DNA from: Pectinatus brassicae
GTDB lineage: Bacteria > Bacillota > Negativicutes > Selenomonadales > Selenomonadaceae
DNA length: 64,000 nucleotides
Assembly (NCBI RefSeq): GCF_014201835.1
Contig: NZ_JACHFH010000003.1
Location: 1 to 64,000, forward strand
Reading direction: 5' to 3'
Shown here: positions 20,023-39,395 of the stretch, piece by piece
Layout of the letters: each line of letters starts with the position of its first letter
Position numbering within the stretch: position 1 is the first letter of the stretch
The notes under the pieces: model-generated
What the model was told of the DNA's origin: nothing
Seen by the model: the letters and a program-made list of their open reading frames with translations, nothing else
Databases searched by the model: none
Made by a program: the position numbers and the translations under genes

Positions 20023-20097
20023 TTTGTGGATAAAATGATATAGTTACAAAGATGCTAGTATTTTAAAAGTATAATATTTATATTGTAGGAGTAAAAA

Positions 20098-20562: not shown

Positions 20563-20598
20563 TAACAGCCGTTGGCATTTATGCCAACGGCTGTTATT
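20561..20598. terminator. Hairpin between the EIIA gene and the glutamate synthase operon
   Basis: A perfect 17-18-bp inverted repeat begins inside the EIIA stop codon and separates two convergent operons. T-runs are short on both sides, so it may act partly as a 3'-end stabiliser. Confidence 0.8.
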
Positions 20599-20624
20599 AT
20601 CTATAGGATATATTATAGATAGCT

Positions 20625-22964
20625 TTATTCAGCCTGACCAGTGCGATACATTTTTATTGGTTCAGGATTTTTAATTAATTCCCAGATACCGCATGGGCAG
20701 ATACCAGCGCAAATACCGCAGCCAATACATTTAGCGGGATCTGATTTATATTCGATGATACCCATGCCATGTTCAATGCGTGTAATAGCATTTTCCGGGC
20801 AGGCCTTTTCACAGGTTTTGCAGTCACGGCAGGTGCCGCAGCTTACACAGCGATCAACATCACCAATTGGTTCAGGAATATCGTTATGATGACATTTAGC
20901 AAAGAATTCCCTGCCTAATGTATCGGCTGCAACTTCAGCTTTTTCAGGAAAAGCCGGAACTTCTTTATCCATCATATAAGCATCAGCATAATAAGCAGCC
21001 TTATTGCCGGAACCAATGGCATCAACTAAGCGGCCGGGTTTTATGACATCACCAGCGGCAAATACACCTTCCATGATAGAGCCGTCCTTTTGTGGTACGA
21101 GCCAATCACGGAATTTTTTAATTTCCTCGGTTTCAGGCAGATAATCAAGAATAGGGGCTTCACCAATAGATACGATGACCATATCTCCGGCAATGAAATG
21201 ACCTTTATCATCATAGATGCCTTCATTGGTGATTTTGCTGGTCATAAACGGCCAGATGAGTTTACCGCCCAATTGTTCAATATGTTCGATTTCTTCAGCA
21301 AAAGCAGCTGGTTTTTGTACATCGATACAGGTGACATTTTCAGCGCCCATATCATAAGCTCCGCGGGCTGTATCCATACCGGAGTTGCCGCAGCCGATAA
21401 CAATGACATTTTTACCGACTTTAGGATTTTCACCGCGATTTATTGCTTTTAAGAAGGATAACCCCATGGTGAGCTTTTCCTTGCCTTCCCAAGGGAAAAA
21501 GCGTGATTTATGACCACCACTGGCGATGATTACAGCATCATTATTTTGTTTTAATTCAGCAAATTTTTCGTTGTCGACCATGCATTTGGTAACAAATTTT
21601 ACGCCAGCATCGCTGATGCGTTTTAATTCAGTCTGCAATAATTCATGCGGCAGACGAGCTCGCGGAATAACCTGTTCCAGCTTGCCTCCGATAGAGTCAG
21701 CATCATCATAAACGGTTACATCATGACCGCGCTGGATTAACTGCCAGGCAGCACCAAGACCGGCTACACCACCGCCGATAACAGCAACTTTTTTACCAGT
21801 TTTATTGGCGGGAACATCTATTTTTGTATATACGGATTGGAAACCTAATTTACCAATCTGCACGGATTCATCGATTTTGCCGCGTGTACAGGCATCCATA
21901 CACGGATTAGGACAAACAGAAGCACAGACAGAACCAGGAAATGGTGAATATTCGAGAATAAGCTTTTGGGCTTCTTCCTGCTTGTCTTTGCGCAGCAATT
22001 TATAACGAAGCTGGGTAGGAATATGTGCCGGACAGGCAAATTCGCACGGGGCGGCATATTTGGCATTGTTCCACTGCGGCACACGCTGACGATATAAATC
22101 TGTTTCGACAAGATTTTTTACAGCGAAATCATCGACAGCAACATCGCTGAATAAGCCGTTTTTAATCCAGTCTTTAGTGCGAAAATCATGCAAAGGATAA
22201 TGTTCATTGCCTTGTGCCTGTTTAGCTTCAAATGTCAGCGGCGTAAGTTTGTGCCATTGTGACCAGTCACAAAGCTCATTACGCAGCTGTGGTTTGTCGA
22301 TAGCATTGAGGAAATCATCCATACCGCCGTCAAGAAAAGCAATATCATCATTGTTTAATTCGGCTAAAATGATATCATCGGGATGATTATGTGATTTGCC
22401 GCGGAAATATACGGTACCGCCAACCATACCAACGCAGGGGCGTTCACCGAGCACGGAAGTAAATTGTTCGCTGTCATAGCCGCAGACGATGGCCTTGCCG
22501 CCGCCCATAAATTCAAACGAGAAACTGCCGACATTTTTTAACAGCCAGAGTTCTGGTTCTTCATATAAAGGGTCATGTTTCATCAAGGAACCGGTACGGG
22601 TACCACCGCGACCGCCAATGTATATTTTACCGCCAGCCGAGCAATGGCCAGCTGTGTCACCGGCATCACCCTTGACAACGATTTTACCACCGGCATTAAG
22701 CCAGCCGACATCAGCAGAAACAGAGCCATCGGCAATTATTTCTGTATTGTTAAGGCACATCGAGCCAAGGCGCTGGCCGGCATTTGTTACATGGAAACGA
22801 AGTGTTTTTCCTTCAGGCGACCATAATGGTCCGCCAATATCGTGCTGACCAGAGGCCGCTATTTCAAAATTAGTTTCGCCATTAGTAACAGCCTGGCTTA
22901 TTTCTAATAGTAAATCCTGTGTAGACATGCGGTCATGTCCGGTTAAAGTATCTATTTTAAACAT
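20625..22964 (-). CDS. Glutamate synthase: GXGXG domain fused to NADPH-oxidoreductase (GltD-like) and ferredoxin domain
   Basis: A 779-residue subunit with three parts. Residues about 1-245 correspond to the C-terminal GXGXG beta-helix domain of the large GOGAT subunit. Residues about 300-690 form a GltD-like flavoprotein with FAD (VAVIGGGVAGLGAA) and NADPH (VIVIGCGNSGMD) dinucleotide folds plus N-terminal cysteine clusters. A C-terminal ferredoxin-like region carries multiple CxxC motifs. It would deliver electrons from NAD(P)H to the FMN subunit encoded just upstream. The GGAGGAG Shine-Dalgarno and 16-base gap show co-transcription with the other two subunits. Confidence 0.88.
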   Translation of the reverse strand: MFKIDTLTGHDRMSTQDLLLEISQAVTNGETNFEIAASGQHDIGGPLWSPEGKTLRFHVTNAGQRLGSMCLNNTEIIADGSVSADVGWLNAGGKIVVKGDAGDTAGHCSAGGKIYIGGRGGTRTGSLMKHDPLYEEPELWLLKNVGSFSFEFMGGGKAIVCGYDSEQFTSVLGERPCVGMVGGTVYFRGKSHNHPDDIILAELNNDDIAFLDGGMDDFLNAIDKPQLRNELCDWSQWHKLTPLTFEAKQAQGNEHYPLHDFRTKDWIKNGLFSDVAVDDFAVKNLVETDLYRQRVPQWNNAKYAAPCEFACPAHIPTQLRYKLLRKDKQEEAQKLILEYSPFPGSVCASVCPNPCMDACTRGKIDESVQIGKLGFQSVYTKIDVPANKTGKKVAVIGGGVAGLGAAWQLIQRGHDVTVYDDADSIGGKLEQVIPRARLPHELLQTELKRISDAGVKFVTKCMVDNEKFAELKQNNDAVIIASGGHKSRFFPWEGKEKLTMGLSFLKAINRGENPKVGKNVIVIGCGNSGMDTARGAYDMGAENVTCIDVQKPAAFAEEIEHIEQLGGKLIWPFMTSKITNEGIYDDKGHFIAGDMVIVSIGEAPILDYLPETEEIKKFRDWLVPQKDGSIMEGVFAAGDVIKPGRLVDAIGSGNKAAYYADAYMMDKEVPAFPEKAEVAADTLGREFFAKCHHNDIPEPIGDVDRCVSCGTCRDCKTCEKACPENAITRIEHGMGIIEYKSDPAKCIGCGICAGICPCGIWELIKNPEPIKMYRTGQAE

Positions 22965-22980
22965 ATCTTACGGCTCCTCC

Positions 22981-24615
22981 TCAGCATACGTATTGAATAC
23001 CTAATTGTTTGGCGATGGCAGCATCAGTGGAAACCAATGCGTCACTGCGTCCGACTGGCAATGAGCTGTTGCCGATAGGCGCCATTAATTTACGCAATTC
23101 TTTATCAAAGGTTAATACATAATCAACGATTCTTTCTGCGCCGTATTCAACATCAAGACGTTTTACAAGACGAGGATCCTGGGTGCAGATTCCGGTAGGA
23201 CAATTACCAGTATTGCAGGCATTGCAGCGGCCATGTTCATTGCCAACGCAGCCCAACAGCTGGATAAGCATTTTACCTACGAACACACCGTTGGCTCCCA
23301 AACAAATCATTTTGAAAGCATCAGCTGCGGCATTACCGGTCATGCCGATACCACCACCGCCATAAAGTGGAATTTGTCCCTGTAAGCCTTGTTTTACAGC
23401 GGCTAAGTAGCAGTCACGTATTTTGGATACGATAGGATGACCTGTATGGTCAAGCGAAATTTCATTGGCAGCACCAGTTCCACCCTGAATACCATCAATG
23501 AAGAAACCACCGCAGATTTGATAAGGGTCACGTAATAAATTATTATAAACGGAAACCGAAGTAGCAGAAGCGGCACATTTGATAGCAACGGGAACCCGGA
23601 AACCAAATGCAGCGTTTAATGATAAATGCATTTTTTGTACGGATTCTTCGATAGAATAGAGTCCCTGATGATTAGGCGGGGAAGATAAGGTAGCTTTTGG
23701 TACGCCACGGATGGCCTGAACATGTTCAGCAACTTTTGCTGCCTGTAACAGGCCGCCATCACCAGGTTTTGCACCCTGACCGATTTTTATTAATACCCCA
23801 GCTGGGTCGGTTTTCATTTTAGGAATTGCTTTGACGATTCTGTTCCAGCCAAAATGACCGGAAGCAATTTGTAAAATCATGTATTTTAATTGCTCAGATT
23901 CCAATAATTTACTGGGCATGCCGCCTTCGCCTGAGCTCATGCGGACTGGCAAACCGCATTTTTCGTTAAGATAGGCAACGGCCATAGCAACTGCCTCCCA
24001 AGCACGTGTAGATAATGCGCCAATAGACATATCAGAAAAAATAAGTGGATAAATCCATTGTACAGGTGGAGCCTTGTGTGCCATGGTAAGTTTGCCATCT
24101 TTTAAGATGAAGGGCAGTGATTTTGCTGGCAGTACACGACCGAAAGGTGAACGCACATCAAAGGTATGACGGATAGAATCAAGCGATGGGTCAGTCATCT
24201 GACTGATACGTCCAACGATGATATGATCAAGAGTACGCTGGGCATTTAAATTGGTACGTCCACCGCGTTTTACCGGACCGGCATCATGAGCCATTAAAGT
24301 TTGTCTATTGTCGTCAGTGTTACGTACAGGCTTAATAGCATCATTAGGACATACTTTAGCGCACATGCCGCAGCCAACACAGGCATTAGCTAAAGTTTTT
24401 ACCTGCTTAATGACTGGGATAGTTTTATGAGTATTCTGTGGGTCAGGTTTGATATTTTGTGAAAATATTTTATCGACACGCATAACGCCTGCTTTTATAG
24501 CTCCGAATGTACAAGTGGAAACACAACTGCCACACATGGTGCAACGTTCAGCAATATATTCAATATTCCATTTAAGGTCGGATTTGGTGATATCTCTAAC
24601 TTTTATTGTTTCCAT
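22981..24615 (-). CDS. Glutamate synthase FMN-domain subunit with N-terminal ferredoxin clusters
   Basis: The 544-residue catalytic core that reductively aminates 2-oxoglutarate. Residues 20-95 hold two 4Fe-4S motifs (CTMCGSC... and CVGCGMC...). The remainder is the FMN-binding TIM barrel of GltB, with GGTGAANEI and the 3Fe-4S type cysteine cluster RCNACNTGNCPTGIC near residue 465. Here the enzyme is split into three polypeptides, as in archaea and many anaerobes, rather than a 1500-residue GltB. It overlaps the amidotransferase gene by 13 bases. Confidence 0.9.
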   Translation of the reverse strand: METIKVRDITKSDLKWNIEYIAERCTMCGSCVSTCTFGAIKAGVMRVDKIFSQNIKPDPQNTHKTIPVIKQVKTLANACVGCGMCAKVCPNDAIKPVRNTDDNRQTLMAHDAGPVKRGGRTNLNAQRTLDHIIVGRISQMTDPSLDSIRHTFDVRSPFGRVLPAKSLPFILKDGKLTMAHKAPPVQWIYPLIFSDMSIGALSTRAWEAVAMAVAYLNEKCGLPVRMSSGEGGMPSKLLESEQLKYMILQIASGHFGWNRIVKAIPKMKTDPAGVLIKIGQGAKPGDGGLLQAAKVAEHVQAIRGVPKATLSSPPNHQGLYSIEESVQKMHLSLNAAFGFRVPVAIKCAASATSVSVYNNLLRDPYQICGGFFIDGIQGGTGAANEISLDHTGHPIVSKIRDCYLAAVKQGLQGQIPLYGGGGIGMTGNAAADAFKMICLGANGVFVGKMLIQLLGCVGNEHGRCNACNTGNCPTGICTQDPRLVKRLDVEYGAERIVDYVLTFDKELRKLMAPIGNSSLPVGRSDALVSTDAAIAKQLGIQYVC

Positions 24616-25709
24616 CTTTGTACCTCCAGGTCATTGTCAATAACGACGACTTCACGCTCGTTAGGGTAAATATCTTGGGACATATCGCGGTCTGGCATGA
24701 TTTCATTCAAACCGCATACTTCAGAAGCAATAGCCACCATTGTATCAGTTCGGCCGACTACAACAGGACGCAGCTTTTTGGAATCACAGCAGGTAAGCAT
24801 GCGACCATCAGGCAGGTTGGCAATAATGGTGTTAGGACCATTAATTTCCAAATGAGCAAGGGACTGTCTTATAGAAGTAAGTACATCTTTATCTTCACGC
24901 TGATTTATTTCAGTAAATGGCAACGGTGTAATTACATGTTTATAGTATTCTATTGGCCATTTTAATTCATGTAATACATAATGAAGTGTATATAAGAAAT
25001 TCTGCGAATCGGATTCAAAACCGACGTAACCACGGTGTAGAGATTTCTGGAATTCTTTATTTTTAGTATAGAAAGTATTTTCGCCATTAGCACAAAGTGT
25101 ATAGCCTTGTAAGAAGAATGGATGGGCAGCATAGCGAACAATGTCGTAATTGGTATTTTGGCGGCACTGCACGACAACGCTTTTTGCCATCAGGCAGCCA
25201 TTATCATCCCAAAGTCTGAAATAGGTAGCAATATCACGCGGATCGCCTATTTCTTTAAGGGTTAAAACATCCGGCCAGAAAGAATACACGTATCCTTCAC
25301 CGGCTTTTTCCAAAATCTCACGCAGTTTAAGGCGCATATCTAAGAGAAGTTCTTCTTTTTCGGCCATGGGTTTATCACGGTAATATTCCGGATAATCATA
25401 ATTACGGAATATATAATATGGCATGGCTTTTATATCAAGACCTGGTTGGTCATTAGGTACAGGAATCCATTCTGCTACCTGCTCCCAATTGTGGCTGTCC
25501 ATAAAGTCCTCAACCATTTGTGCGCCACGCTGGGTGCAGGCCAATGATAATAATGGCTTATCTTTATATGGTGTGAAAATACCATATAAATCCTGCATGA
25601 CCATGGCAAAACCGGAATTATCATGTCCTTCTTGCTGCGGCAGCATCAGATATAAGGCTTTTGATGGACTAAAAGCCACTTTACTTTTTATTGAACCTAT
25701 TCTACACAT
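24603..25709 (-). CDS. Glutamate synthase glutamine amidotransferase subunit (class II, Ntn)
   Basis: Releases ammonia from glutamine for the FMN subunit. I chose the ATG at 25709, which gives MCRIG..., because class II amidotransferases need Cys2 exposed as the N-terminal nucleophile after Met removal; the longer frame would bury it. A GGGGGC Shine-Dalgarno supports this. The 368-residue protein carries family features such as GHDNSGFAM and the C-terminal GRTDTMVAIASE segment. It is the first gene of the operon, behind a leader with a large palindrome. Confidence 0.88.
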   Translation of the reverse strand: MCRIGSIKSKVAFSPSKALYLMLPQQEGHDNSGFAMVMQDLYGIFTPYKDKPLLSLACTQRGAQMVEDFMDSHNWEQVAEWIPVPNDQPGLDIKAMPYYIFRNYDYPEYYRDKPMAEKEELLLDMRLKLREILEKAGEGYVYSFWPDVLTLKEIGDPRDIATYFRLWDDNGCLMAKSVVVQCRQNTNYDIVRYAAHPFFLQGYTLCANGENTFYTKNKEFQKSLHRGYVGFESDSQNFLYTLHYVLHELKWPIEYYKHVITPLPFTEINQREDKDVLTSIRQSLAHLEINGPNTIIANLPDGRMLTCCDSKKLRPVVVGRTDTMVAIASEVCGLNEIMPDRDMSQDIYPNEREVVVIDNDLEVQRWKQ

Positions 25710-25781
25710 ATATGTTCGCCCCCAAAATAATACACAATAGCAATGTATCGAATACAAACGATTTGATTTACAGACTAAAAA

Positions 25782-25812
25782 ATCATATATTGGTTTATAA
25801 CCAATATATGAT
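25782..25812 (-). promoter_or_regulatory. 14-bp perfect inverted repeat in the glutamate synthase leader
   Basis: Left arm 25782-25795 and right arm 25799-25812 are perfect complements around TAT, about 73 bases upstream of the amidotransferase start. There is no T-run after it on the minus strand, so it looks like an operator or structured leader rather than a terminator. A smaller near-palindrome, CAGCAACATTGCTG, lies next to it at 25816-25829. Confidence 0.65.
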
Positions 25813-25829
25813 GCATCAGCAACATTGCT

Positions 25830-26323
25830 GAAGTGCCTGTCGCAAATGAAAAACATAAATTCCTTTGCCAAAAAACATATGTTATTATTAAATGCCATAC
25901 ATTACAGCAATCTAGAATATAGATGCATATATAATTATATTAATGTATTGTTATACTGTCAACAAAAAAATTCTTGTTTTGCTATAAAATATTGTATTCA
26001 TTGCCTATTGACATGAAAATAAAACGATTAAAACATAAAAAAACATGCATAAAAATACTTTTTGAAATTTTTATGCATGTACTAAATAAAATGTGATAAA
26101 AATAACGTATTGTATAATTGTAATTATAACAATGGTTTATAAGACTTGTAAGTAATATTGATATAAAATATGTATTGAATTGTATTGCAGTATACAAAAT
26201 ACTGAAAGAATATAAAAAAATAAGGAAAAAGTTTTTAATTGATGTTAAAATATATATAATTTTGTTCAATATTATAAAAAAACAACATAATTGTAAAATT
26301 GTAATGCCAACGTTTAAAAAAAG
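25830..26323. other. Very AT-rich intergenic region, possible small RNA
   Basis: I find no credible protein gene; the one longer open frame crosses a terminator hairpin and has a low-complexity composition. The region holds the orphan terminator at 26037-26080 and several AT-rich inverted repeats, including one near 26106-26130. A minus-strand TATAAT about 30 bases inside the region could start a transcript of roughly 200 bases ending at the orphan terminator. That transcript is speculative. Confidence 0.35.
26037..26080 (-). terminator. Orphan minus-strand intrinsic terminator
   Basis: Arms 26043-26056 and 26067-26080 form a perfect 14-bp stem, followed on the minus strand by six T. The LytM gene upstream on this strand already has its own terminator at 26324-26351, so this one implies another transcript or a back-up stop. 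Confidence 0.75.
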
Positions 26324-26351
26324 AACCCCCGGATGAGATATCTGGGGGTTA
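26324..26351 (-). terminator. Terminator of the LytM peptidase gene
   Basis: On the minus strand AACCCCC pairs with GGGGGTT around a 13-base loop and is followed by CTTTTTTT, just after the LytM stop. Confidence 0.85.
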
Positions 26352-26359
26352 ACGTATTA

Positions 26360-27280
26360 TTATAGATAGCCAGCCGGATTTACCGGACGGTCATTTATTC
26401 TGACTTCATAATGAACATGCGGACCAGTACTAAAACCAGTACTGCCAACGTAAGCAATAATTTGACCGCGGCTTACATGTTGACCGGCAGAAACTACGAC
26501 ACTGGAAGCGTGTCCAAAACGGGTAATAACACCATGACCGTGATTGATTTCAACCATATTGCCATAGCCGCCGGAATTCCAGCCAGCTGTAGTAACAACA
26601 CCATCGGCTGTTGCTTTGATGGGGGTACCATAATCAGCAGCGATATCAACACCAGGATGAAAATCAGAACCGTTCCAGCGAAAACCATAAGGTGAGCTGA
26701 TGCTGCCTTGGGCTGGCCAGCCATATGGCGTAGTCAATCCAATCTTGGCTGCTTGTTCCTGCTGTTCACGTTTAGCTAAAATAGCTTCATGCAGGATTTT
26801 CATATTATCTTGATGTAAGGTCATGCGTTTTTCAAGATTATTGAGAACTTCAGTGATGTTTTGCACATTAGGAGCAATAAATGGACCACCCTGCCCTCCT
26901 TGACCGCTGTTTTGGGCAGAAGGGTCATCAGTGGTAGGAACGGTGATATTAGTGAGCGATTTTAATTCCTGTTCACTGGAATTGAGCTTATCTAAGGAAT
27001 TTTGCATCTGAGTGGCTTTTTGGGCTAGACCAGTAAGCTGTTCCTGCTGTACCGCATTTGCTTTTTGCAGTTCAGAAATAGTCTGCTGACTGGCTTTGTT
27101 GGTGAAGAAAGTATAACCAGCAAAGGTAAAACCGCCAAGCAGCAATAAAATACAAATAGCAGCAGATATTATGCCATATTTAAAAAGATTACTGCTGATA
27201 TGGAAGCTGTGGGTATTATCCTTATTATCAGTAATTATTTTTATGGTATAATCATGCGCTGATTTTTTTTCAAGTGACAT
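26360..27280 (-). CDS. Membrane-anchored M23 (LytM) peptidoglycan endopeptidase
   Basis: A 306-residue envelope protein. It has a short cytoplasmic N-terminus, one transmembrane segment near residues 36-58, a coiled-coil rich in Gln/Lys/Leu (about 60-115), a Gly/Gln linker and a C-terminal LytM domain. The zinc ligands are visible as H-P-G-V-D and G-P-H-V-H, with a further conserved histidine in RFGHAS, so it is likely an active endopeptidase and not an EnvC/NlpD-type dead activator. The GGAGGC Shine-Dalgarno supports ATG 27280 over the TTG at 27301. Monocistronic. Confidence 0.9.
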   Translation of the reverse strand: MSLEKKSAHDYTIKIITDNKDNTHSFHISSNLFKYGIISAAICILLLLGGFTFAGYTFFTNKASQQTISELQKANAVQQEQLTGLAQKATQMQNSLDKLNSSEQELKSLTNITVPTTDDPSAQNSGQGGQGGPFIAPNVQNITEVLNNLEKRMTLHQDNMKILHEAILAKREQQEQAAKIGLTTPYGWPAQGSISSPYGFRWNGSDFHPGVDIAADYGTPIKATADGVVTTAGWNSGGYGNMVEINHGHGVITRFGHASSVVVSAGQHVSRGQIIAYVGSTGFSTGPHVHYEVRINDRPVNPAGYL

Positions 27281-27421
27281 GAAAAGGCCTCCATCTGTCA
27301 ACTATAATATACAATATTGTTCAAAGTATAACATAAATAAAATTTTTCTGCCAGCAGAGTGTATTTACTATTATTGGCTTATAGGTGTATATTTTACGAA
27401 ATATGGTAGAAAAAATTAGGA

Positions 27422-28255
27422 TTATTCGTCGTAGATGCCTTTGAGCAGAGTTTCTTTGCGTAAATCAAGGCATTCGCATTCGCGCTCATCACTGAGACTG
27501 CGAATGGTATCGAGAATAATGTTGGCAATCATGGGGGCATCATCATAGAAAATATCTTCCAGAATATCATGCGACCAGGATTTAGTTATTCCTTCACCAT
27601 AATTAACTACATAATAAAGACCGGCATAGCAGGCACCAATTTCACGGGCTAAATATACTTCCGGGCAAATACTCTGTCCGACAATATCGGCATGACCGTT
27701 CATCATGGCGATTTCGGCGGGGCTTTCAAAATGACGCCCGTCAGTATTGGCATAAGTACCACGGGTGAAGATACGTCCATCAAAATGTTTATTAGTTGTT
27801 TCAATTAATGCCTTACGCATTTGCGGGCATAAGGCATCGCGCATTACTAATAAGTATTTACCTTCAAGGCCGACATCTTTTCTTACCGATAAATCTAAAT
27901 AATCATCAGGGATCAGAAAATCGCGGGTATCGAGCAGTTTATTTACAGTGCCGACACCGCCTTCAGAAATAATTCGTTTAACACCAGCTTCGCGAAATAC
28001 CCAAAATAACTGGCGTGAGGCATCAGCACGATTTACGCCGCTGCGCCAGCCATGCATTTTGCAGGTGATGACTTTTTTGCCGGCTACTTCAAACAGTCGC
28101 AGGGCGCTGCTTTGTCCATAAGGTGTATCGAATATAAGGTTATCAGCAATAATTTTTACATCAGCATCAGTAACACGAGCTGGGAAGTTGCTGGATAATG
28201 TACCTGAGCCACCGATGATGGCAAAATCAGCTTGGGGAATAGTTTGTTTTGGCAA
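27422..28255 (-). CDS. MTA/purine-nucleoside phosphorylase family protein in the mqn operon
   Basis: A 277-residue member of the MTAP/PNP phosphorylase family, with an N-terminal IIGGSGTL phosphate loop (about 13-20), the SEGGVGT stretch, the FESPAEI-A-M-M-N-G nucleoside-pocket region, and the later ADIVGQSICPEVYLAREIG. Start is TTG 28255 behind AGGAGT. It is the last gene of the futalosine-menaquinone operon, 23 bases after mqnC. I infer that it may remove adenine or hypoxanthine from (amino)futalosine, replacing the hydrolase MqnB, which the window lacks. An ordinary 5'-methylthioadenosine phosphorylase role is the alternative. Confidence 0.8.
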   Translation of the reverse strand: MPKQTIPQADFAIIGGSGTLSSNFPARVTDADVKIIADNLIFDTPYGQSSALRLFEVAGKKVITCKMHGWRSGVNRADASRQLFWVFREAGVKRIISEGGVGTVNKLLDTRDFLIPDDYLDLSVRKDVGLEGKYLLVMRDALCPQMRKALIETTNKHFDGRIFTRGTYANTDGRHFESPAEIAMMNGHADIVGQSICPEVYLAREIGACYAGLYYVVNYGEGITKSWSHDILEDIFYDDAPMIANIILDTIRSLSDERECECLDLRKETLLKGIYDE

Positions 28256-28278
28256 GTAAAAGACTCCTATCTAAAGTA

Positions 28279-29313
28279 TTAATCAGTTAATTTTTTTATT
28301 ATATTATAGGCGGTATCGCGCTGGGCGGGGATTTTATCAGCCTTGCGAATGGTATCAATCATGCTGTTGACCGACATATGATTGGAGGTGCCAGCTGCTT
28401 TAACGACATTTTCTTCTAGCATAATGCTGCCTAAATCATCAGCCCCGAAAGCCAGAGACATCTGGCCGATATTTTTTCCCTGCGTTACCCAGGAGCCTTG
28501 GATATGGCTGATATTATCAAAATATATGCGTGATACAGCCAAGGTTTTTAAATAATCCCAGGAGGATATTTTTTCGCCGCCGAGTTCAGTATGACCAGGC
28601 TGGAACGACCACATAATAAAAGCGCGGAAGCCGCCTGTTTCCTCTTGCAGCTGGCGGATTTTCTGCATATGTTCGATGCGTTCTTCGATAGTTTCACCTA
28701 ATCCCAATACCATAGTAGCGGTTGATTTCATGCCAATATTATGGGCACAGCGCATTACTTCAAGCCAGTCGTCAGTCATTATTTTTTTCGGGCTGACAAT
28801 TTTTCGTACGCGGTCAACGAGAATTTCCGCACCACCACCGGGCAGGGAAGAAAGGCCGGCATTCTGCAGCCGTTTTAATACTTCGGTGAATGAATAGCCT
28901 GTTATTTTACTAAAATGCAGTATTTCCGTGGCGGTGAAGGAGTGGATAACAATATCAAATTTTTTCTTTATGGCACGTAATATATCAATATAATATTGAA
29001 AATCAACATCGGGATGCAGGCCGCCCTGCAGCATTATCTGCGTGCCGCCGGCATCAATGGTAGCTTGTACCTTTTCCAATATTTCATCAATTGATAGAAG
29101 ATAGGCACCTGCTTGTTCGGGGCGGCGGTAAAAGGCACAAAAACGGCATTCATTTACACAGATATTAGTGTAATTGATATTACGGTCAATTACAAAGGTA
29201 ACAATATTGCCGGGATGCAATTTTTGCCGGATTTTATCGGCTTGTTGAGCCAAAGTAAGTATATCGCCATCTTTTAATAACGAGATGGCTTTAGCATCAG
29301 TTATTCTATTCAT
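28279..29313 (-). CDS. mqnC: Cyclic dehypoxanthinylfutalosine synthase
   Basis: A radical SAM enzyme that cyclises dehypoxanthinylfutalosine in the futalosine route to menaquinone. The 344-residue protein has the C-x-x-x-C-x-x-C cluster in CVNECRFCAF (about 52-61), followed by MLQGGLHPD and PGGGAEILVDRVR, which separate MqnC from MqnE. The ATG has an AAGGAGT Shine-Dalgarno and overlaps the preceding gene by 8 bases. An anaerobe would use menaquinone for fumarate or other anaerobic respiration. Confidence 0.92.
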   Translation of the reverse strand: MNRITDAKAISLLKDGDILTLAQQADKIRQKLHPGNIVTFVIDRNINYTNICVNECRFCAFYRRPEQAGAYLLSIDEILEKVQATIDAGGTQIMLQGGLHPDVDFQYYIDILRAIKKKFDIVIHSFTATEILHFSKITGYSFTEVLKRLQNAGLSSLPGGGAEILVDRVRKIVSPKKIMTDDWLEVMRCAHNIGMKSTATMVLGLGETIEERIEHMQKIRQLQEETGGFRAFIMWSFQPGHTELGGEKISSWDYLKTLAVSRIYFDNISHIQGSWVTQGKNIGQMSLAFGADDLGSIMLEENVVKAAGTSNHMSVNSMIDTIRKADKIPAQRDTAYNIIKKLTD

Positions 29314-30412
29314 TAATTGACTCCTTATTGGATAGTGGTTGATATAAGGAATTGCGTTCTACTGGTAAATAGCCGGCCTGAGTGATGATTTTAGCCAAAC
29401 GGCTTGTGCTCATAAGACTACCGGAATCAGCACCCGCGGCATGAATGATTTTTTCTTTGCCGACAGTTCCATCTAAATCATCAGCACCAAAGGCCAAGGC
29501 TAATTGGGCAATTTCTTCGCTGAGCATTATCCAAAAGGCCTTTATATGGTCGATATTATCTAAAACAAGGCGGGCGATAGCAATGAATTTAAGGTTTTCC
29601 CAAGCAGTAGTAGGCTTTATGATATACTCTGCCGCCAGTTGGGTGTGCAATGGGTGAAAAGGAAAGGAAACAAAGGCGTTAAAGCCGTTGGTTTTGTCCT
29701 GAATATCACGCAGGGTAAATAAATGACGCAGCCTCTGGGGCAGGGTTTCGATATGGCCATATAATATTGAGGCATTGGTGGGAATATTTAATTTATGGGC
29801 AGTTGTAACAACCTCTACCCATTCGGCTGTAGATGCCTTATCCGGACAGATGATTTTTCTGATTTTATCGTCCAGAATTTCAGCACCGCCGCCGGGCAGC
29901 GAGGAAAGACCTGCTGCTTTTAGTTCCTCTAAAACGGCTTTTATCGATTTGTGGCTGATTTGAGCAAAATACACTATTTCTACCGGGGTAAAGGCCTGAA
30001 TATGGACAGTGGGCAGCAAATTTTTTACAAGTTTTATAACATCCAGATAGTAAGAAAAATTAATATTGGGATATAGGGAACTGACTATATGTATTTCAGT
30101 TAAGCCCGGAGCATTTTTTTGAGCATTTTTTACAGCTGTGGCAATATCATCAAGACTCATTAAATAGCCGTTTTTATCACCTGCTTCTACGGAGAAAGCA
30201 CATAATGGGCAGTTGGCCGTGCAGGTATTGCTGAGATTTATATGACGATTGATATTATAATAAACATTTTTTTTACTATGGCGTTCTTTAGCCTGACGTG
30301 CCCATTGGGCCAGGTCCAAAAGGGACGCGTTTTCGTACAATAATAAAGCTTCTTCAAATGACAGTCGTACACCATCATGGGCTTTTTGTTTGGCAATCGC
30401 TAATGCATCCAT
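29306..30412 (-). CDS. Divergent MqnE-like radical SAM enzyme (second copy)
   Basis: A 368-residue member of the aminofutalosine synthase family with an intact C-x-x-x-C-x-x-C motif (CTANCPLCAF). It parallels its neighbour at 30431-31516 throughout (PGGGAEILDD, ASILYGHIET, FGADDLDGTVG). It departs from the neighbour at places that copy shares with MqnC: CPLCAF where the others read (K/R)FCAF, and SSLYPN where the neighbour has SGLHPN and MqnC has LHPD. It sits between the canonical-looking MqnE and mqnC. It may be a redundant duplicate or act on a different enolpyruvyl or nucleoside substrate; the sequence does not decide. Confidence 0.8.
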   Translation of the reverse strand: MDALAIAKQKAHDGVRLSFEEALLLYENASLLDLAQWARQAKERHSKKNVYYNINRHINLSNTCTANCPLCAFSVEAGDKNGYLMSLDDIATAVKNAQKNAPGLTEIHIVSSLYPNINFSYYLDVIKLVKNLLPTVHIQAFTPVEIVYFAQISHKSIKAVLEELKAAGLSSLPGGGAEILDDKIRKIICPDKASTAEWVEVVTTAHKLNIPTNASILYGHIETLPQRLRHLFTLRDIQDKTNGFNAFVSFPFHPLHTQLAAEYIIKPTTAWENLKFIAIARLVLDNIDHIKAFWIMLSEEIAQLALAFGADDLDGTVGKEKIIHAAGADSGSLMSTSRLAKIITQAGYLPVERNSLYQPLSNKESINE

Positions 30413-30430
30413 TTTATTCCTCGCTTATCT

Positions 30431-31516
30431 TTAAAAAGTACGAACAATATTAAAATTACAATCACATTCAGCCGGAACACGGCCGGCTTCCTTGATGGCA
30501 GCAATTAAAGTTTCTTTGGACAGGGCTTTTTGGGAATGAACATCAGCAGCATGCATGATTTTTTCGCCGCCGACAGTTCCATCTATATCATTAGCGCCAA
30601 AACCAAGTGCCAACTGGGCTATTGGCAAAGTGAGCATTACCCAGTAAGCTTTTATATTATGAATATTATCGAGCATCAAACGGCTTATAGCCATGGTCTT
30701 TAAATCATCCCAAACGCTGGTGCGGCTGACACTGTCCTCTAATGCTGTATTGTTTGGCTGGAACGGAAAACAGATAAAGGTTTGCAGGCCGCCGGTTTCA
30801 TCCTGTAGATCACGCAGGGTTAAAAGATGATTGATACGTTGCTCGATGGTTTCAATATGACCATAGAGCATGCTGGCATTTGTTTTTATGCCTAATTTAT
30901 GAGCGGTGCGGGCAACTTCAAGCCATTCACCAGCAGTAGCCTTGTTGGGACATAGTTTCTGCCTGATGTCATCATCAAGAATTTCGGCACCGCCACCGGG
31001 CATTGCTTCTAAGCCGGCATCAATAAGCTCAGCTAAAACAGTTTTGATTGATTTGCCGCTTATTTTAACAAAGTGCATTATTTCTACACCAGTAAATCCT
31101 TTGATATGCATCTGCGGGAAATTTTTCTTTATGGATTTTATCATATTAAGATAATATTCATAGGGGAGATTAGGATGCAGTCCGCTGACAACATGGAGAT
31201 TTTTCATGGAAGGATCCTTGGCAGCATTAGCTATCCTGTTCAGCATAGCTTCCTCGGTCAGGGCATAAGCCTGTTTGCTGCTGCCCTGGCAGCCAAAGGC
31301 GCAGAATTTACATTGCCCGATACAGATATTGGTTAAGTTGATATGTAAGTTGACATTATAATAAACATAATCACCGCTTATTTTTTTGCGTACTTTGTCG
31401 GCTAAAGTGCCGATTCTTGTTAAATCATTAGAAGCGTACAGGGCCAGACCATCTTCCTTGTTTAGTCGTTGACCGGCATTTATTTTAGCTTCTATTTTGT
31501 CTAAGGTATTACTCAA
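30431..31516 (-). CDS. mqnE: Aminofutalosine synthase
   Basis: A radical SAM enzyme joining 3-[(1-carboxyvinyl)oxy]benzoate, the MqnA product, to adenosine from SAM to give 6-amino-6-deoxyfutalosine. The 361-residue protein has the cluster CIGQCKFCAF (about 62-71), HVVSGLHPNLPYEYY and PGGGAEILDDDIR. Start is TTG 31516 with an AGAGGAGC Shine-Dalgarno. It is the first gene of a four-gene operon (mqnE, mqnE-like, mqnC, phosphorylase) led by two hairpins. The gene for the substrate enzyme, mqnA, is at 57.9 kb. Confidence 0.9.
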   Translation of the reverse strand: MSNTLDKIEAKINAGQRLNKEDGLALYASNDLTRIGTLADKVRKKISGDYVYYNVNLHINLTNICIGQCKFCAFGCQGSSKQAYALTEEAMLNRIANAAKDPSMKNLHVVSGLHPNLPYEYYLNMIKSIKKNFPQMHIKGFTGVEIMHFVKISGKSIKTVLAELIDAGLEAMPGGGAEILDDDIRQKLCPNKATAGEWLEVARTAHKLGIKTNASMLYGHIETIEQRINHLLTLRDLQDETGGLQTFICFPFQPNNTALEDSVSRTSVWDDLKTMAISRLMLDNIHNIKAYWVMLTLPIAQLALGFGANDIDGTVGGEKIMHAADVHSQKALSKETLIAAIKEAGRVPAECDCNFNIVRTF

Positions 31517-31529
31517 AACGATTGCTCCT

Positions 31530-31585
31530 CTAAAAAAAATAACATAGTGCTGCTATGTAAAAAAAGTAAAGACAGTCGTACTGTC
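31530..31585 (-). promoter_or_regulatory. Two hairpins with T-runs in the mqn operon leader
   Basis: On the minus strand GACAGT-ACG-ACTGTC (31585-31571) is followed by TTTACTTTTTTT. Next comes ACATAG-CAGCA-CTATGT (31558-31542), followed by TTATTTTTTTT immediately before the mqnE Shine-Dalgarno. Each stem is only 6 bp, so termination would be partial. The pair resembles an attenuator or tandem weak terminators. Confidence 0.45.
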
Positions 31586-31751
31586 ATTTTATCTGTACAT
31601 TTTGTCCGATATGGTTTACAGATAATTGTTAACTTAAAAATCTATATAATAAAACTCTATACTAAATTATACTACAAAGTATATATTGAGAAAACAGAGA
31701 AATTATTGAACCAATAATGCAGTTAATAAAAAAAACAGGCTGAAAAGCCTG

Positions 31752-32753
31752 CTAACGGCAGATTCTTATTATTATATCCTCTAATAATGCTGGTGCGGCA
31801 GTGCCTGTTTTCAGCTGGTAATCGGCTTCCGCCAAAGCGATAATAGCCTGCTGCAGCGTTTGGATATTGAATTTTTGTGCCTGTCTTATAAGTTTTTCGG
31901 CAATAAAGGGAACAAGACCAACTGTTTTAGCGATATCATTGGCATTGAAATGACGGCCTAAATAGTATTTTATTTTCCATAATTGACGGATGTGACGGGT
32001 CAGTATAGTTAAAATACTGATAGCATTGACCCCGGAATTGAGTTCCTTTTCCAAAAGAAATAAGGCTTGGCTGACGTCTTTACTGCCAACGGCTTCTGCC
32101 AAAGCAAAAGCTGATATTTCAGGCAGGCCGGACAGAATATTGATTAAATCATTTTTACGGACATCACGGCGGTCACTATATAATGATAATTTATCAAGTT
32201 CTTTATCTAGAAAGCCTAGAGATACCTGTGGCATTAAGCTGATGGTGCTAAGAAGATATTGAAAGCTTTCTGTATCTGGCTGTTTACCGATTTCCCGGAA
32301 TTTGCTTTTAAGCCATTCACTGATGTTATAGCTGCGTACAGGCAGGGCTTCCATTATAAGACCATATTTATCAATGATTTTATAAAGTTTACGTCGTTTG
32401 TCTAATTTTTCGTCGGTTTCAATGATAAGGGTAGTAAAATCAGGCATATTTTCAAGCAGGTCGATGAAGTGCTGCTCGTGCTTTTCACTGTTTTTGTTGA
32501 AAAGATTATTATTATGGACGACAACAATGTTTTTGGCAGTGAAAAAAGGCATGCTGCTGCATGCTTCAATAATATCATTAATAGTAGCATTGTTATCAAA
32601 TTTGTTTATATCATTTATATTATTATCAGGTAAAATTTTCTGTAATAATGCTTTTAAAAATTTATCGGCAAGGTATTTTTCTTCGCCGGCAATTAAATAT
32701 AAATTTTTTAAATTATTTTTTTTAATTTGAGTTATTGCTTCACCATACAGCAA
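31752..32753 (-). CDS. holA: DNA polymerase III delta subunit
   Basis: The clamp-loader subunit that opens the beta clamp. The 333-residue protein has the three-domain delta layout: an N-terminal AAA+-like fold starting with LYLIAGEEKYL, a middle lid domain and a C-terminal helical collar. Motifs are weak in this family, so the call rests on overall pattern, length, and position next to comEC/comEA, a common arrangement in Firmicutes. Start is TTG 32753, nine bases after AAAGGA. It lies 14 bases behind comEC in the same direction. Confidence 0.88.
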   Translation of the reverse strand: MLYGEAITQIKKNNLKNLYLIAGEEKYLADKFLKALLQKILPDNNINDINKFDNNATINDIIEACSSMPFFTAKNIVVVHNNNLFNKNSEKHEQHFIDLLENMPDFTTLIIETDEKLDKRRKLYKIIDKYGLIMEALPVRSYNISEWLKSKFREIGKQPDTESFQYLLSTISLMPQVSLGFLDKELDKLSLYSDRRDVRKNDLINILSGLPEISAFALAEAVGSKDVSQALFLLEKELNSGVNAISILTILTRHIRQLWKIKYYLGRHFNANDIAKTVGLVPFIAEKLIRQAQKFNIQTLQQAIIALAEADYQLKTGTAAPALLEDIIIRICR

Positions 32754-32767
32754 CTTAACACGTCCTT

Positions 32768-35125
32768 TTATTTTACATAAGGGTGAATGCTGCAGCTATT
32801 GCCATCGGTTAAAAATACTATAGCACCATTTTTATCGGTGCGGTATATTCGGCTGTTAACAGACTGCAGATTTTTTATTACATTCTCATTGGGATGGCCG
32901 TAATTATTATTGGCGCCAACAGATATTATACTCCAGCGAGGTTTTACTGCAGCCAAAAATTCAGGACTTGAGGAAGTTTTAGAGCCATGATGGGCAACTT
33001 TTAGCACAGTGCAATGTAAATTAGGATACTGTGCTAATAATTTATTTTCTTCTTGTATAGGTAAATCTCCAGTAAATAATACACTAAAATTTTTATAATG
33101 AACCTTAATTATAACAGATGATTCATTAACAGTTTTATCAGATGAAGGTTGGGTAAAAAGAATATCAAAATGCACATCATCAAGGATAAATGATTGATTT
33201 TGTTGTACAGGCAGTACTTTATGCATAATGATATTTTGCGGTGCGATGTGCCATAATGCGGCATATTTACTGCCGTTTTCCTGACCAATAAATACATATT
33301 GTACGGGAATATGCTGAAGAATACTGCCGGCAGCTGCAGAATGGTCACCATCGACATGACTTAAAAAAATGGCGTCCAGCGTAGTTATACCATAGTGATA
33401 CAGATATGGTATATCAACTCTCCTGCCTAAATCAAAATCCCCTTTGGTAATGCCGCCAGTGTCGATCATAACAGCATGGTGATGGGGTGTAATTATAAGA
33501 GCGGCATCACCTTGTCCCACATCAATGAAATGAACAGCTAGACGGCGGGGCTGCAAAAAAATATATATACATGGGATCAGCAGCAGAATCGATAGTATAA
33601 TTACTAATTGACGATAGCAATGAAAATTTTTAATAAAGAAATGACGATAACTATCATTAAAAAGTACTATTAGAACTATATAATATATGATACTGCCATA
33701 AATAGTCAAATAGGGCAGATAAATGCTGCTGGCTGGCAATAGTGATAATAATGCCGTTATTTCATGGACAAGACCAAGTAACAGACTGCAGCCTACAAAA
33801 ATAATTGCAGCGGGAAAGGACCAAAATAAATTGATAATGATGCCAACTAATGCCACCATTATTATAGCTTCAACAATAGGTACAGCAATGATATTGCTGA
33901 ATAGGCAGCTTAGGGAAATGGTATTAAAATACCATGCGAGCAGCGGCAGACAGAATAATTGAGCACCTAAAGTCAAGGCTAAAGGCAGGCGAATATAGGC
34001 AGGCAGAAACAACAATTTTTTCTGCAGAGGTAGTGCTATATATAATAGGCCGGCTGTGGCAGCAAAGGACAATTGAAAGCTTATGTCAAATAATAATCCG
34101 GGAGAAATTAACAGCATAATAACAGCCGTTAAGGCCAGGATGTAATGGGAGGAATTCTGCCGGTTAGATGCCAAGGCAGCATAGGTGATTATGCCCATGG
34201 CAGCAGAACGTATGACTGGCGGAACCATACCGGAAAATAGGCAGTAGATGCTTATAATAATTAGTAAAAGCACAAAGGTGAGCCAGGTTTTTAAATGAAA
34301 CAAGCGTCCCAGAAAAATTATTGCACCGGCAATAAGTGTAATATGTGAGCCCGATACTGATAATATATGCACAATGCCAGTAATAGTAAAACTTTCCAAT
34401 AAATGCGGGTCAATGCCTTGGTAACCGCCAAACAGCATGGCAAAAATAGCCGCGGCATCAGCTGGTGGCATATATTTTTCCAGTGTAGAGCGTATATGCT
34501 GTCTTATTAATGTGATTTTGCGTAATAATGGCATAGCGTCAGGTTGTGCCGTAATTTTTACATTGTTATAGGCAATTACAGAGGCAAAAATATTATTTTC
34601 CTGGGCTTGTTTTTGTATATCAATACGTCCTGGATTTTTGTAGCTGCTTATAGCACTGATTTTTCCAGAGGCAGTTATAGTGTCACCGGGCAAAGCGAAA
34701 GCAGGTGATTTTTGCTTGGTATAAAGATAATAAGAGCCGCTTAACGTTTTACTGTCTATTTGATGGGCTTTTATAATGTAGCGTACATGATAAATTTTGT
34801 CAGCAGATTGATGCCAGCGGGCTTCAGCTGTGACCATGCCGTTTACAGTATGGTCTTGTCCGATAAATTGCGCAATATTATTATTGTCAGTCAGTGCTGC
34901 AGCGGTATAGCGGACAAAGCCGAGCATAAATACTAATAAAGTTACGCCGATAAAGGTATAGCTTGATTTGCAGCAGGTTGAAATAAAGCATAGTATAAAT
35001 AACGACAATAAAATAATACTTGGCATAAGTAATGGCAAGGACAGATAATCAGCGGCAATAATACCAAGGCATAGAAAAAACAACATGCTGGTGCTGAAGA
35101 TAAGCGGATGCTGTCCATACTTCAT
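32768..35125 (-). CDS. comEC: ComEC/Rec2 DNA-uptake channel
   Basis: The inner-membrane channel for single-stranded DNA during transformation. The 785-residue protein has an N-terminal DUF4131/OB-like part (about 1-200), a polytopic Competence domain with many membrane segments (about 215-510), and a C-terminal metallo-beta-lactamase-like domain (about 520-785) with the metal motif HVDGDH and a downstream VAHHGSKTSS. Full length. It overlaps comEA by four bases, so competence for DNA uptake is likely. Pilus and comF genes are not in the window. Confidence 0.93.
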   Translation of the reverse strand: MKYGQHPLIFSTSMLFFLCLGIIAADYLSLPLLMPSIILLSLFILCFISTCCKSSYTFIGVTLLVFMLGFVRYTAAALTDNNNIAQFIGQDHTVNGMVTAEARWHQSADKIYHVRYIIKAHQIDSKTLSGSYYLYTKQKSPAFALPGDTITASGKISAISSYKNPGRIDIQKQAQENNIFASVIAYNNVKITAQPDAMPLLRKITLIRQHIRSTLEKYMPPADAAAIFAMLFGGYQGIDPHLLESFTITGIVHILSVSGSHITLIAGAIIFLGRLFHLKTWLTFVLLLIIISIYCLFSGMVPPVIRSAAMGIITYAALASNRQNSSHYILALTAVIMLLISPGLLFDISFQLSFAATAGLLYIALPLQKKLLFLPAYIRLPLALTLGAQLFCLPLLAWYFNTISLSCLFSNIIAVPIVEAIIMVALVGIIINLFWSFPAAIIFVGCSLLLGLVHEITALLSLLPASSIYLPYLTIYGSIIYYIVLIVLFNDSYRHFFIKNFHCYRQLVIILSILLLIPCIYIFLQPRRLAVHFIDVGQGDAALIITPHHHAVMIDTGGITKGDFDLGRRVDIPYLYHYGITTLDAIFLSHVDGDHSAAAGSILQHIPVQYVFIGQENGSKYAALWHIAPQNIIMHKVLPVQQNQSFILDDVHFDILFTQPSSDKTVNESSVIIKVHYKNFSVLFTGDLPIQEENKLLAQYPNLHCTVLKVAHHGSKTSSSPEFLAAVKPRWSIISVGANNNYGHPNENVIKNLQSVNSRIYRTDKNGAIVFLTDGNSCSIHPYVK

Positions 35126-35685
35126 AGGCAGACCTTGTCTTTTAATGCGGTGAATTTAGCAGTACCGATGCCACGGACTTTTTGCAGTTCGTCAATTGTT
35201 TTAAAAGCCCCCGTTTTTTGACGATATTCGATTATACGCTGAGCCATAGCCGGACCAATACCGGGCAATTTAATTAAAGCAGTACTGTCAGCGTTGTTGA
35301 TGCTTATTTTATCGGATGAATTTTCTTTGCGGCTATTATCAGCAATAGCAATATTATTTTTAGCTGGAATGATTATCTGCATTTCATCATGCAGCTTTTG
35401 TGATAAATTAGTTTTCTCAGCAGCAGCGGCTGCGCTTAAACCACCGCACTTTTTTACAGCATCAGCTAAACGGGAATCAGCAGGCAGTTCAATTACGCCG
35501 GGATTGTTGACAGCGCCACAGACATAAATAATAATATTGGGCTTACTTTCCGTGATGGTATTTGCAGCTGCGGGATTGGGGTGGAGCGAAATAGCCGGAG
35601 TTGATGTAATCTGATAAATAATACTGATGATAGCTATTGCTATAATGATTAGTACAATAAGCAGCTGTTTCCTAAAAATGGGCAT
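35122..35685 (-). CDS. comEA: ComEA competence DNA receptor
   Basis: A membrane-anchored receptor that binds incoming double-stranded DNA. The 187-residue protein has an N-terminal transmembrane segment (about 7-27), a SLBB-like beta-grasp region (about 50-110) and tandem C-terminal helix-hairpin-helix motifs (IKLPGIGPAMAQRI and LQKVRGIGTAKF). The domain order matches Firmicute ComEA. A strong AAGGAGG Shine-Dalgarno precedes the ATG, and its stop overlaps comEC. Confidence 0.93.
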   Translation of the reverse strand: MPIFRKQLLIVLIIIAIAIISIIYQITSTPAISLHPNPAAANTITESKPNIIIYVCGAVNNPGVIELPADSRLADAVKKCGGLSAAAAAEKTNLSQKLHDEMQIIIPAKNNIAIADNSRKENSSDKISINNADSTALIKLPGIGPAMAQRIIEYRQKTGAFKTIDELQKVRGIGTAKFTALKDKVCL

Positions 35686-35771
35686 ACTAACCTCCTTGCT
35701 AGAAAAAACTGAATATATTGATAATTAACTCTAAAAATTTATCGCACGTTAATAAAATGTGCGATAAATTT

Positions 35772-36542
35772 TTAGTGAAGTTTACTAAAATATAAATTTT
35801 TCATTTCGCTGACAATAGTTTCTAAATTGTTAGGGCGCAGACGCAGATTATAGCCTAAAAATAATGGCGAGGTTGGAAAACGCGGCATTATTTTAACGGT
35901 TATTAAACCGTTGATGCGGTAAAAGAAAATATTATAGCTGTGACAGCGACTGTTAAAATGGTGCATTAGATAATCAACTGCTATTTTTATAAAATCGGCG
36001 ACGAAATCAATCTGGGTATTATCCTGGGTTGTAATATTTAATTCACAAAATCCCATGCGCGGCGAGGTAGAAACATTTAATTCCACCTGCCCAGCTTTTT
36101 TTATAACAATGCCGGTAAAATCACTTTTTTCATACATTAATGATTCATCGGCAGTTTTAAGGCCAACTATTTGCATATGTGGATGACGCATGCTGCCGCC
36201 GGACTGCGGTCCATAATTTTTAAAAAAAAGCACCGATTTATATTCGCCGGAATCGAGCATATTGAACCAATGCTTAACGCCAAAACGGATGAGTTTATGC
36301 ATATGTTCATCACTATAATCGGGCATATCAGTACCACAGTGACGCGTTTCCAATAAAACCGTCTGGTAGGAATTTTCCAGGACATTGTATTTGTTTTCCA
36401 ACAGAGTCAGTTCGCCGCAATGGTCAATGATGTTTTCAAGATGCTCATAATCGCAAAAAGGACATTGGGCCGAGATATTAATAATAGTTTCAGGTTTGGT
36501 CTGTCCGATATTTGTATTAAATTCAATAACGTTTTTATTCAT
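35772..36542 (-). CDS. HIT-like / galactose-1-phosphate uridylyltransferase-related protein (DUF4931-like)
   Basis: A 256-residue cytosolic protein of the GalT/HIT superfamily. A CPFC pair near residue 27-30 suggests a zinc site as in GalT. The nucleotide-transferase-like H-P-H motif is in GGSMRHPHMQ (about 137-146), where GalT has H-P-H-x-Q. I prefer ATG 36542 to ATG 36548 because AAAGGA is spaced eight bases from the former and only two from the latter. The substrate is unknown; a nucleotidyl transferase or hydrolase role follows from the fold. Monocistronic, downstream of nothing obvious. Confidence 0.75.
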   Translation of the reverse strand: MNKNVIEFNTNIGQTKPETIINISAQCPFCDYEHLENIIDHCGELTLLENKYNVLENSYQTVLLETRHCGTDMPDYSDEHMHKLIRFGVKHWFNMLDSGEYKSVLFFKNYGPQSGGSMRHPHMQIVGLKTADESLMYEKSDFTGIVIKKAGQVELNVSTSPRMGFCELNITTQDNTQIDFVADFIKIAVDYLMHHFNSRCHSYNIFFYRINGLITVKIMPRFPTSPLFLGYNLRLRPNNLETIVSEMKNLYFSKLH

Positions 36543-36790
36543 AACCATTGTCCTTTTATGTACAAATTATAATTTTATCAGCTGTAAATTGCTTAAAACT
36601 AGTATTTAAAAAAAGCACGGATTGCAAATTATGCTGGCGTAGTTTAGTGATAAATGCTATAATTTTTTAAGCTAATAAACTTATTTTATATAGGCTTATA
36701 AATTATGTTTACGACAATATAAAATATTTGTTTTACATATATTATATATAATTTGAATGAAAAAGAAAATAAAATAAAAGATTTATTTAA

Positions 36791-38467: not shown

Positions 38468-38471
38468 TAAA

Positions 38472-39353: not shown

Positions 39354-39394
39354 AATGACTATGATTTCGTAAATTACGAAATCATAGTCATTTT
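39352..39394. terminator. Bidirectional terminator between the lipid kinase and biotin carboxylase genes
   Basis: A near-perfect inverted repeat of about 19 bp, flanked by A and T runs, overlapping the kinase stop codon and ending just before the biotin carboxylase stop. Confidence 0.88.
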
Positions 39395-39395
39395 T

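Follow-up and report, generated by a model that had tools for sequence, protein, structure and literature searches.

Our study examined a 64,000-nucleotide stretch of the Pectinatus brassicae genome (class Negativicutes, family Selenomonadaceae; NCBI RefSeq assembly GCF_014201835.1, contig NZ_JACHFH010000003.1, positions 1 to 64,000; hereafter the window), in which a cluster of menaquinone biosynthesis genes encodes two different enzymes of the MqnE type, that is, aminofutalosine synthases of the futalosine pathway. The pair of MqnE copies is real and old, and its sequences neither demonstrate nor exclude a new substrate for either member. We tentatively favor, with somewhat less than even confidence, the explanation that the two are non-redundant partners in aminofutalosine synthesis, as a heteromer or through divided labor, within a futalosine pathway of the MqnZ type; this partnership is ranked first, above a new substrate for one of the copies and, after that, above two interchangeable copies.

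The cluster is encoded on the reverse strand. Its most upstream gene, mqnE (30431-31516, with a TTG start), yields a product that scores 471.6 bits against TIGR03700, over the curated cut-off of 434.55 bits. It is followed by mqnE2 (29306-30412), whose product lies about 10 bits below the same cut-off (424.5 bits) and still has TIGR03700 as its best-scoring family, and by mqnC (28279-29313), the gene for cyclic dehypoxanthinyl futalosine synthase (TIGR03699, 496.1 bits, cut-off 428.1). The last gene, mqnZ (27422-28255), belongs to the PF01048 phosphorylase family and, judging by its phyletic pattern, replaces mqnB and mqnD. The CxxxCxxC cluster motif is present in the products of the first three genes, as well as in the inspected members of both paralogue clades; these coordinates and family scores confirm the description given in the first-pass annotation of this DNA, of three tandem genes for radical S-adenosylmethionine enzymes that all keep the motif. 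The region marked in that annotation also covers mqnZ, to which its text makes no reference. Because the successive junctions consist of an 18-nt gap (mqnE/mqnE2), an 8-nt overlap (mqnE2/mqnC) and a 23-nt gap (mqnC/mqnZ), the four genes are likely to be on a single transcript. Promoter and terminator scans scored above the shuffled mean and were uninformative, and an Rfam scan of window positions 20000-40000 gave no match. The window's mqnA, which encodes a chorismate dehydratase homologue and is the sole PF02621 gene found in the genome, is located on the forward strand (57897-58733), 26 kb distant from the cluster.

The age of the pair was established from a tree of 106 rows, in which 9 of the 71 MqnC rows were used, 11 Selenomonadaceae genomes were left out and, as in the alignment described below, sequences shorter than 320 amino acids were excluded. 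The 31 MqnE2 rows of the class form one clade with 100/100 support, and so do the 28 rows of the upstream type (100/100); both clades, together with three single-copy members of the class, make up one clade (100/96) inside MqnE, and the MqnE/MqnE2 sequences are split from MqnC at 100/100. Since both copies form fully supported clades of the class, these results provide evidence for one duplication near the base of the Negativicutes, from which two old, class-wide copies descend, and they rule out a recent redundant duplication. The middle gene is thus neither an MqnC nor a stray copy: it belongs to a Negativicutes clade of its own within MqnE. For the single-copy genus g213, the comparison of branching before versus after the duplication gave p 0.345 in the approximately unbiased test.

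The distribution of the enzymes was followed with MqnE2 as the query in samples of 151 genomes of the order, 150 of the class and 199 of the phylum; counts are per genome and were taken from genome tables, related genomes are not independent, and locus listings comprise at most the 30 best matches of each search. Matches were identified in 114 of the 151 genomes of the order, exactly three in 110 of them, four in one, and one or two in three, so that the middle gene is not absent from close relatives, a possibility raised when it was first described. In the class sample, 71 of 150 genomes have matches (three in 59, four in one and two in 11), and a PF02621 match is present in all 71; the initial description of a retained, diverged copy therefore holds, the copy being old, closely linked and accompanied by its two counterparts in 59 of these 71 genomes. 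Eight of the 11 genomes with two matches belong to one genus (g213), and the rest are G383, G368 and G378; because other genomes of their genera have three matches, the counts for G368 and G378 are probably due to assembly gaps. The phylum sample gave matches in 56 of 199 genomes, with three copies in four members of the window's family and otherwise only in two genomes of family f5, which lies outside the class. The third CofH-type copies of the latter (G153:C4:319853-320887 and G303:C3:1973557-1974594), which were left out of the tree, are 40-42% identical to MqnE2, below most ordinary MqnE. We also observed class genomes that have a PF02621 gene and no CofH-type match to MqnE2 at 1e-30, namely G397 (G397:C1:977673-978446), G046, G076 and G083.

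Gene order assigns the two copies different histories. The common order outside the class is mqnE-mqnA-mqnC, followed in some loci by mqnZ, and the three single-copy class members that were read (G376, G383 and G416) have mqnE-mqnA-mqnC-mqnZ. In the other families of the class and in G149, 18 of 20 MqnE2 loci read mqnE2-mqnA-mqnC-mqnZ, the remaining two being cut by contig ends. As this order mirrors that of mqnE in other lineages, the comparison indicates that MqnE2 is the copy that occupies the ancestral mqnE slot of the operon. The upstream-type copy of the other families is alone among mqn genes in 17 loci, where no conserved functional neighbor was found; the commonest other gene nearby encodes a cell-wall hydrolase (assigned by eye), found in 8 of the 17 loci; its position varies, and wherever its strand is listed it is the opposite one. 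The window's family differs in that mqnE has, for the most part, been relocated ahead of mqnE2 and mqnA is gone from the cluster: the order mqnE-mqnE2-mqnC occurs in 28 of the 30 best-matching family loci, the two exceptions being G149, which keeps mqnE2-mqnA-mqnC-mqnZ, and one locus cut by a contig end. The two copies are less than 400 nt apart in 21 of the 25 genomes of this family in the class sample.

Residues were compared in an alignment of 35 ordinary MqnE, 3 single-copy class MqnE, 39 upstream copies, 42 MqnE2 and 71 MqnC, the 151 sequences other than the upstream copies being referred to as the others and residue numbers being those of the window's upstream MqnE. Ninety-four columns are at least 95% conserved in ordinary MqnE, and 27 of them differ from the MqnC majority. 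Both copies retain 17 of these 27 MqnE-specific positions (N56, H58, H108, V110, N213, Y218, H220, K289, M294 and D312-T314 among them). The remaining ten are variable in at least one copy; examples are E106 and K273, which vary in the upstream copies, G75, which varies in MqnE2, and A143 and L250, which vary in both. Two motifs of the middle gene had attracted attention at first: CPLCAF, around the last two cluster cysteines (30194-30211, reverse strand), and SSLYPN (30065-30082, reverse strand). Both are present; only the P of CPLCAF marks the MqnE2 clade, since proline precedes LCAF in 42 of 42 MqnE2 versus 2 of 35 ordinary MqnE, the L occurs in 18 of the 35 ordinary MqnE, and where the window has SSLYPN the clade reads mostly SALHP. 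The two ordinary MqnE with this proline are those of G187 and G265, genomes outside the class with one MqnE and one MqnC each, in which CPLCAF occurs, as it does in the MqnE of Desulfofundulus australicus (L229), L263 and L273, likewise outside the class. We therefore rejected the two motifs as a mark of new chemistry, and the new substrate that they had suggested for the middle gene does not follow from them, given that MqnE2 keeps most MqnE-specific residues and, in other families, occupies the mqnE slot.

It is in the upstream copy, and not in MqnE2, that the alignment places the strongest departures from residues invariant in the family. Arg351 and Tyr355, whose invariance is an observation of this alignment and no published criterion for MqnE, are found in 151 of 151 others, the 42 MqnE2 and that of the window included, and each in only 13 of the 39 upstream copies. 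Where ordinary MqnE reads RDTxY, the window's upstream MqnE reads CDCNF (residues 351-355; 30452-30466, reverse strand), with Cys351, Cys353 and Phe355 in place of Arg, Thr and Tyr. In a set of named genomes, Arg351 was present in none of 20 upstream copies versus 26 of 27 MqnE2 and 53 of 53 MqnE from outside the class; our guess is that this arginine binds the benzoate shared by the MqnE and MqnC substrates. A further cysteine, Cys249 (30770-30772, reverse strand), occurs in 34 of 39 upstream copies versus none of the 151 others, and 25 of these 39 upstream copies, but not one of the 151 others, combine Cys249 with Cys351 and Cys353. Such a trio could have provided an auxiliary iron-sulfur site, an idea weakened by the named genomes: because the trio is present in only 13 of their 20 upstream copies, we do not claim a second cluster. 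Position 351 is Val, Ser or Ile in five of them, two of which (L214 and L219) also have abnormal ends.

Comparison with the known enzymes places both copies with MqnE (TIGR03700; structures 6xi9/6xig, from Pedobacter heparinus), with which they share the cluster motif, whole-length homology, most specific residues and a clade. The AlphaFold2 model of MqnE2 (predicted local distance difference test score, pLDDT, 91.0) is predicted to have the MqnE fold, its best matches in the Protein Data Bank being 6xig/6xi9 (template modeling score, TM, 0.88-0.89), far ahead of HydE, BioB and ThiH; the model of the upstream MqnE has a pLDDT of 93.3. Unlike the known MqnE, they are two class-specific paralogues, MqnE2 having P143 besides the proline before LCAF, and the window's upstream copy having Cys249 and Cys351/Cys353/Phe355. 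MqnC (TIGR03699) is of the same CofH-type superfamily, and the tandem's third gene encodes an ordinary member of that family. The two MqnE copies do not group with MqnC, nor do they have the residues D43, N45, T198 and Q272 found in it (numbering of the window MqnC).

Our preferred explanation would account for these observations as follows. One duplication of aminofutalosine synthase near the base of the Negativicutes would have produced two paralogues that have been kept together since. Both would act at the same step, the addition of the 5'-deoxyadenosyl radical to the 3-enolpyruvyl-benzoate made by MqnA, as partners that are not interchangeable, MqnE2 keeping the conserved Arg/Tyr near the C-terminus and the upstream copy having lost them in this branch. 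We infer the heteromer, one of the two forms of partnership, only from joint retention and asymmetric residue loss. It is important to consider that several observations weigh against this explanation. The foremost objection to an obligatory pair is that a single MqnE suffices in genus g213 (eight two-match genomes, of which two were read) and in G383; the chemistry of the pathway therefore does not require both copies. Thirteen of the 39 upstream copies retain both Arg351 and Tyr355, and the loss therefore postdates the duplication. The copies are not adjacent in 4 of the 25 family genomes, being 1.7 kb apart in G004 and far apart in G012, G014 and G021. Finally, the same retention pattern would be expected if one copy had an essential new substrate.

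That last possibility, in which one copy, more likely the upstream one, would have acquired a new substrate or a second radical step and would serve a branch or an extra modification of a quinone precursor, is unlikely in our judgment and is nevertheless the strongest of the alternatives. In its favor, residues that are invariant across the aligned MqnE, MqnE2 and MqnC have been lost from the upstream copy, this copy is separately located in other families, and the copies are strongly co-retained; against it, the 17 MqnE-specific columns have been kept in both copies, and the neighbors of the solo copy suggest no other pathway in any of the 17 loci. The quinones may point in the same direction: PMC6315149 reports menaquinone-6 (MK6) as the only quinone of Lucifera butyrica, of the family Sporomusaceae, and ordinary menaquinone is therefore made in the class.

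Less probable still, in our opinion, is that the two aminofutalosine synthases are interchangeable and have been retained because of dosage or because each serves under different conditions. Both copies resemble complete MqnE enzymes, members with a single copy exist, and in most other families the copies are apart, which would allow separate regulation there. In the window's family, separate regulation is an unlikely reason for retention because the copies are so close in 21 of 25 genomes, where they are probably co-transcribed and have little room for condition-specific use. Interchangeable copies would also be expected to suffer sporadic loss, and among the 71 class genomes two matches are restricted to G383, the eight of g213 and the two probable assembly gaps. 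Because retention is this deep and the upstream copy has been kept despite losing invariant residues, simple redundancy fits badly.

The pathway in which we place the two partners is itself altered. The canonical futalosine set (MqnA, MqnE, MqnB, MqnC and MqnD) is incomplete in the window genome, as judged by family searches. Its one PF02621 gene is closest to the chorismate dehydratase SCO4506 (7ahr, 2nxo), so it is MqnA, and there is no MqnD. No gene of the genome exceeds the cut-off for MqnB (TIGR03664) or for MTAN (TIGR01704), a weak gene on contig C14 reaching 36.5 versus 124.7 bits and 33.1 versus 73.8 bits, respectively; of 14 genomes tested for MTAN, only G001 and G354, which belong to the same class, have it over the cut-off. 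Within the class sample, G379 alone showed a second full PF02621 gene (G379:C34:6706-7479, 200.5 bits), the PF02621 gene of G356 being one gene split over contigs, and the second matches in the order sample are weak (27 and 22 bits).

Of 59 genomes, 38 have an MqnZ orthologue (E 1.5e-85 or better). A second PF02621 gene of more than 170 bits occurs in 2 of these 38 (G187 and G260; that of G152 is split and weaker) versus 16 of the 21 genomes without MqnZ, of which the remaining five have one PF02621 gene (three genomes) or none (two). When the 31 MqnZ genomes outside the class are compared with these 21, Fisher p is 2.3e-7, to be taken as descriptive. MqnB is over its cut-off in none of 32 genomes with MqnZ versus 15 of 16 without it (Fisher p 1.5e-11, descriptive as the genomes are related); the sixteenth, G262, has MqnB in two pieces, and another of the 16, G274, holds a 76-residue MqnZ-like piece. 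Because the presence of MqnB and of MqnD is nearly exclusive with that of MqnZ, the latter seems to stand in for both together and not for MqnD alone. The modified futalosine branch that the first-pass annotation had proposed is thus supported, with a different cause: what modifies it is mqnZ, together with the lack of MqnB and of MqnD, also in many genomes without MqnE2. That MqnE2, found as it is in genomes whose single PF02621 gene is MqnA, takes the place of the missing MqnD is very improbable and largely refuted, as MqnD absence tracks MqnZ and not MqnE2: among the 31 genomes outside the class that have MqnZ, 29 show no second PF02621 gene of more than 170 bits and 29 have no more than two CofH-type matches, and the 22 of them that were included in the tree contribute no sequence to the MqnE2 clade. 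As a separate observation, family f39 has a further PF02621 gene of 174-180 bits (G265:C1:2781274-2782035 and G187:C14:36959-37723), weaker than the other PF02621 genes there.

The product of the two MqnE partners would then enter this MqnZ-type pathway, where MqnC and MqnZ would cover the work done elsewhere by MqnB, MqnC and MqnD; in one possible order, MqnC would cyclize the nucleoside first and MqnZ would then free the purine, triggering fragmentation to 1,4-dihydroxy-6-naphthoate, and UbiA, UbiD and other late enzymes would complete menaquinone. The full combination of a two-gene MqnE system (either a heteromer or a pair of consecutive radical reactions, with loss of Arg/Tyr and gain of cysteines by the upstream member in one branch) with an MqnZ that takes over from MqnB as well as from MqnD is a doubtful proposition, to which we give a rather low probability. 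Methylthioadenosine (MTA) and methylthioinosine (MTI) phosphorylases (1wta, 2a8y, 3ozb) are among the closest solved relatives of MqnZ. The MTA phosphorylases 2a8y, 1v4n and 1wta read D-Y-D where MqnZ has instead Asn218 and Gly/Ala220, and the aligned MTA phosphorylases have Arg where MqnZ has Met before His68. In the MqnZ of 50 genomes, Asn218 is invariant and position 220 is Gly or Ala. From work on purine phosphorylases, this Asn218 pattern would favor either a 6-oxopurine base or the absence of any purine. Elsewhere in the same genome, on contig C4 (L040:9322-14081), a UbiA gene, separate from the mqn operon, clusters with a TatC-like gene and with genes for UbiD and a polyprenyl synthase (the last three names from translations).

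Ravcheev and Thiele (2016; PMC4746308) reported that mqnD is missing in Mitsuokella and Megamonas and proposed the neighboring PF01048 gene, MqnZ, as the replacement of MqnD; the sections of that paper on these genes place it beside mqnC/mqnE in Mitsuokella, Megamonas and Selenomonas. The window genome likewise has a PF01048 gene beside mqnC/mqnE and no mqnD; unlike in that proposal, MqnZ here would replace MqnB as well, judging by distribution. Those sections name one mqnE, and the main text of the paper does not mention a paralog, radical SAM or mqnB. In the open-licence literature, whose coverage is incomplete, we found no description of two MqnE genes in Negativicutes, and mqnZ was found as a gene only in PMC4746308, the main text of PMC5738691 not mentioning it. 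Apart from the menaquinone genes, a glutamate synthase is apparently split over three adjoining genes of the window (20625-25898: amidotransferase-like, synthase, and GltD-type with a ferredoxin domain, from translations read only).

The futalosine pathway has been discussed as a drug target, since it is absent from humans and essential to certain gut and pathogenic bacteria. If our explanation is true, the Negativicutes would use a variant in which two of the textbook enzymes are missing and another is present twice, and genome-based calls of the pathway would be wrong for a whole class whose members live in the gut, rumen and mouth. Such a variant would also point to specific enzymes to examine: each of the two MqnE, for its role, and a relative of nucleoside phosphorylases that would replace both MqnB and MqnD.

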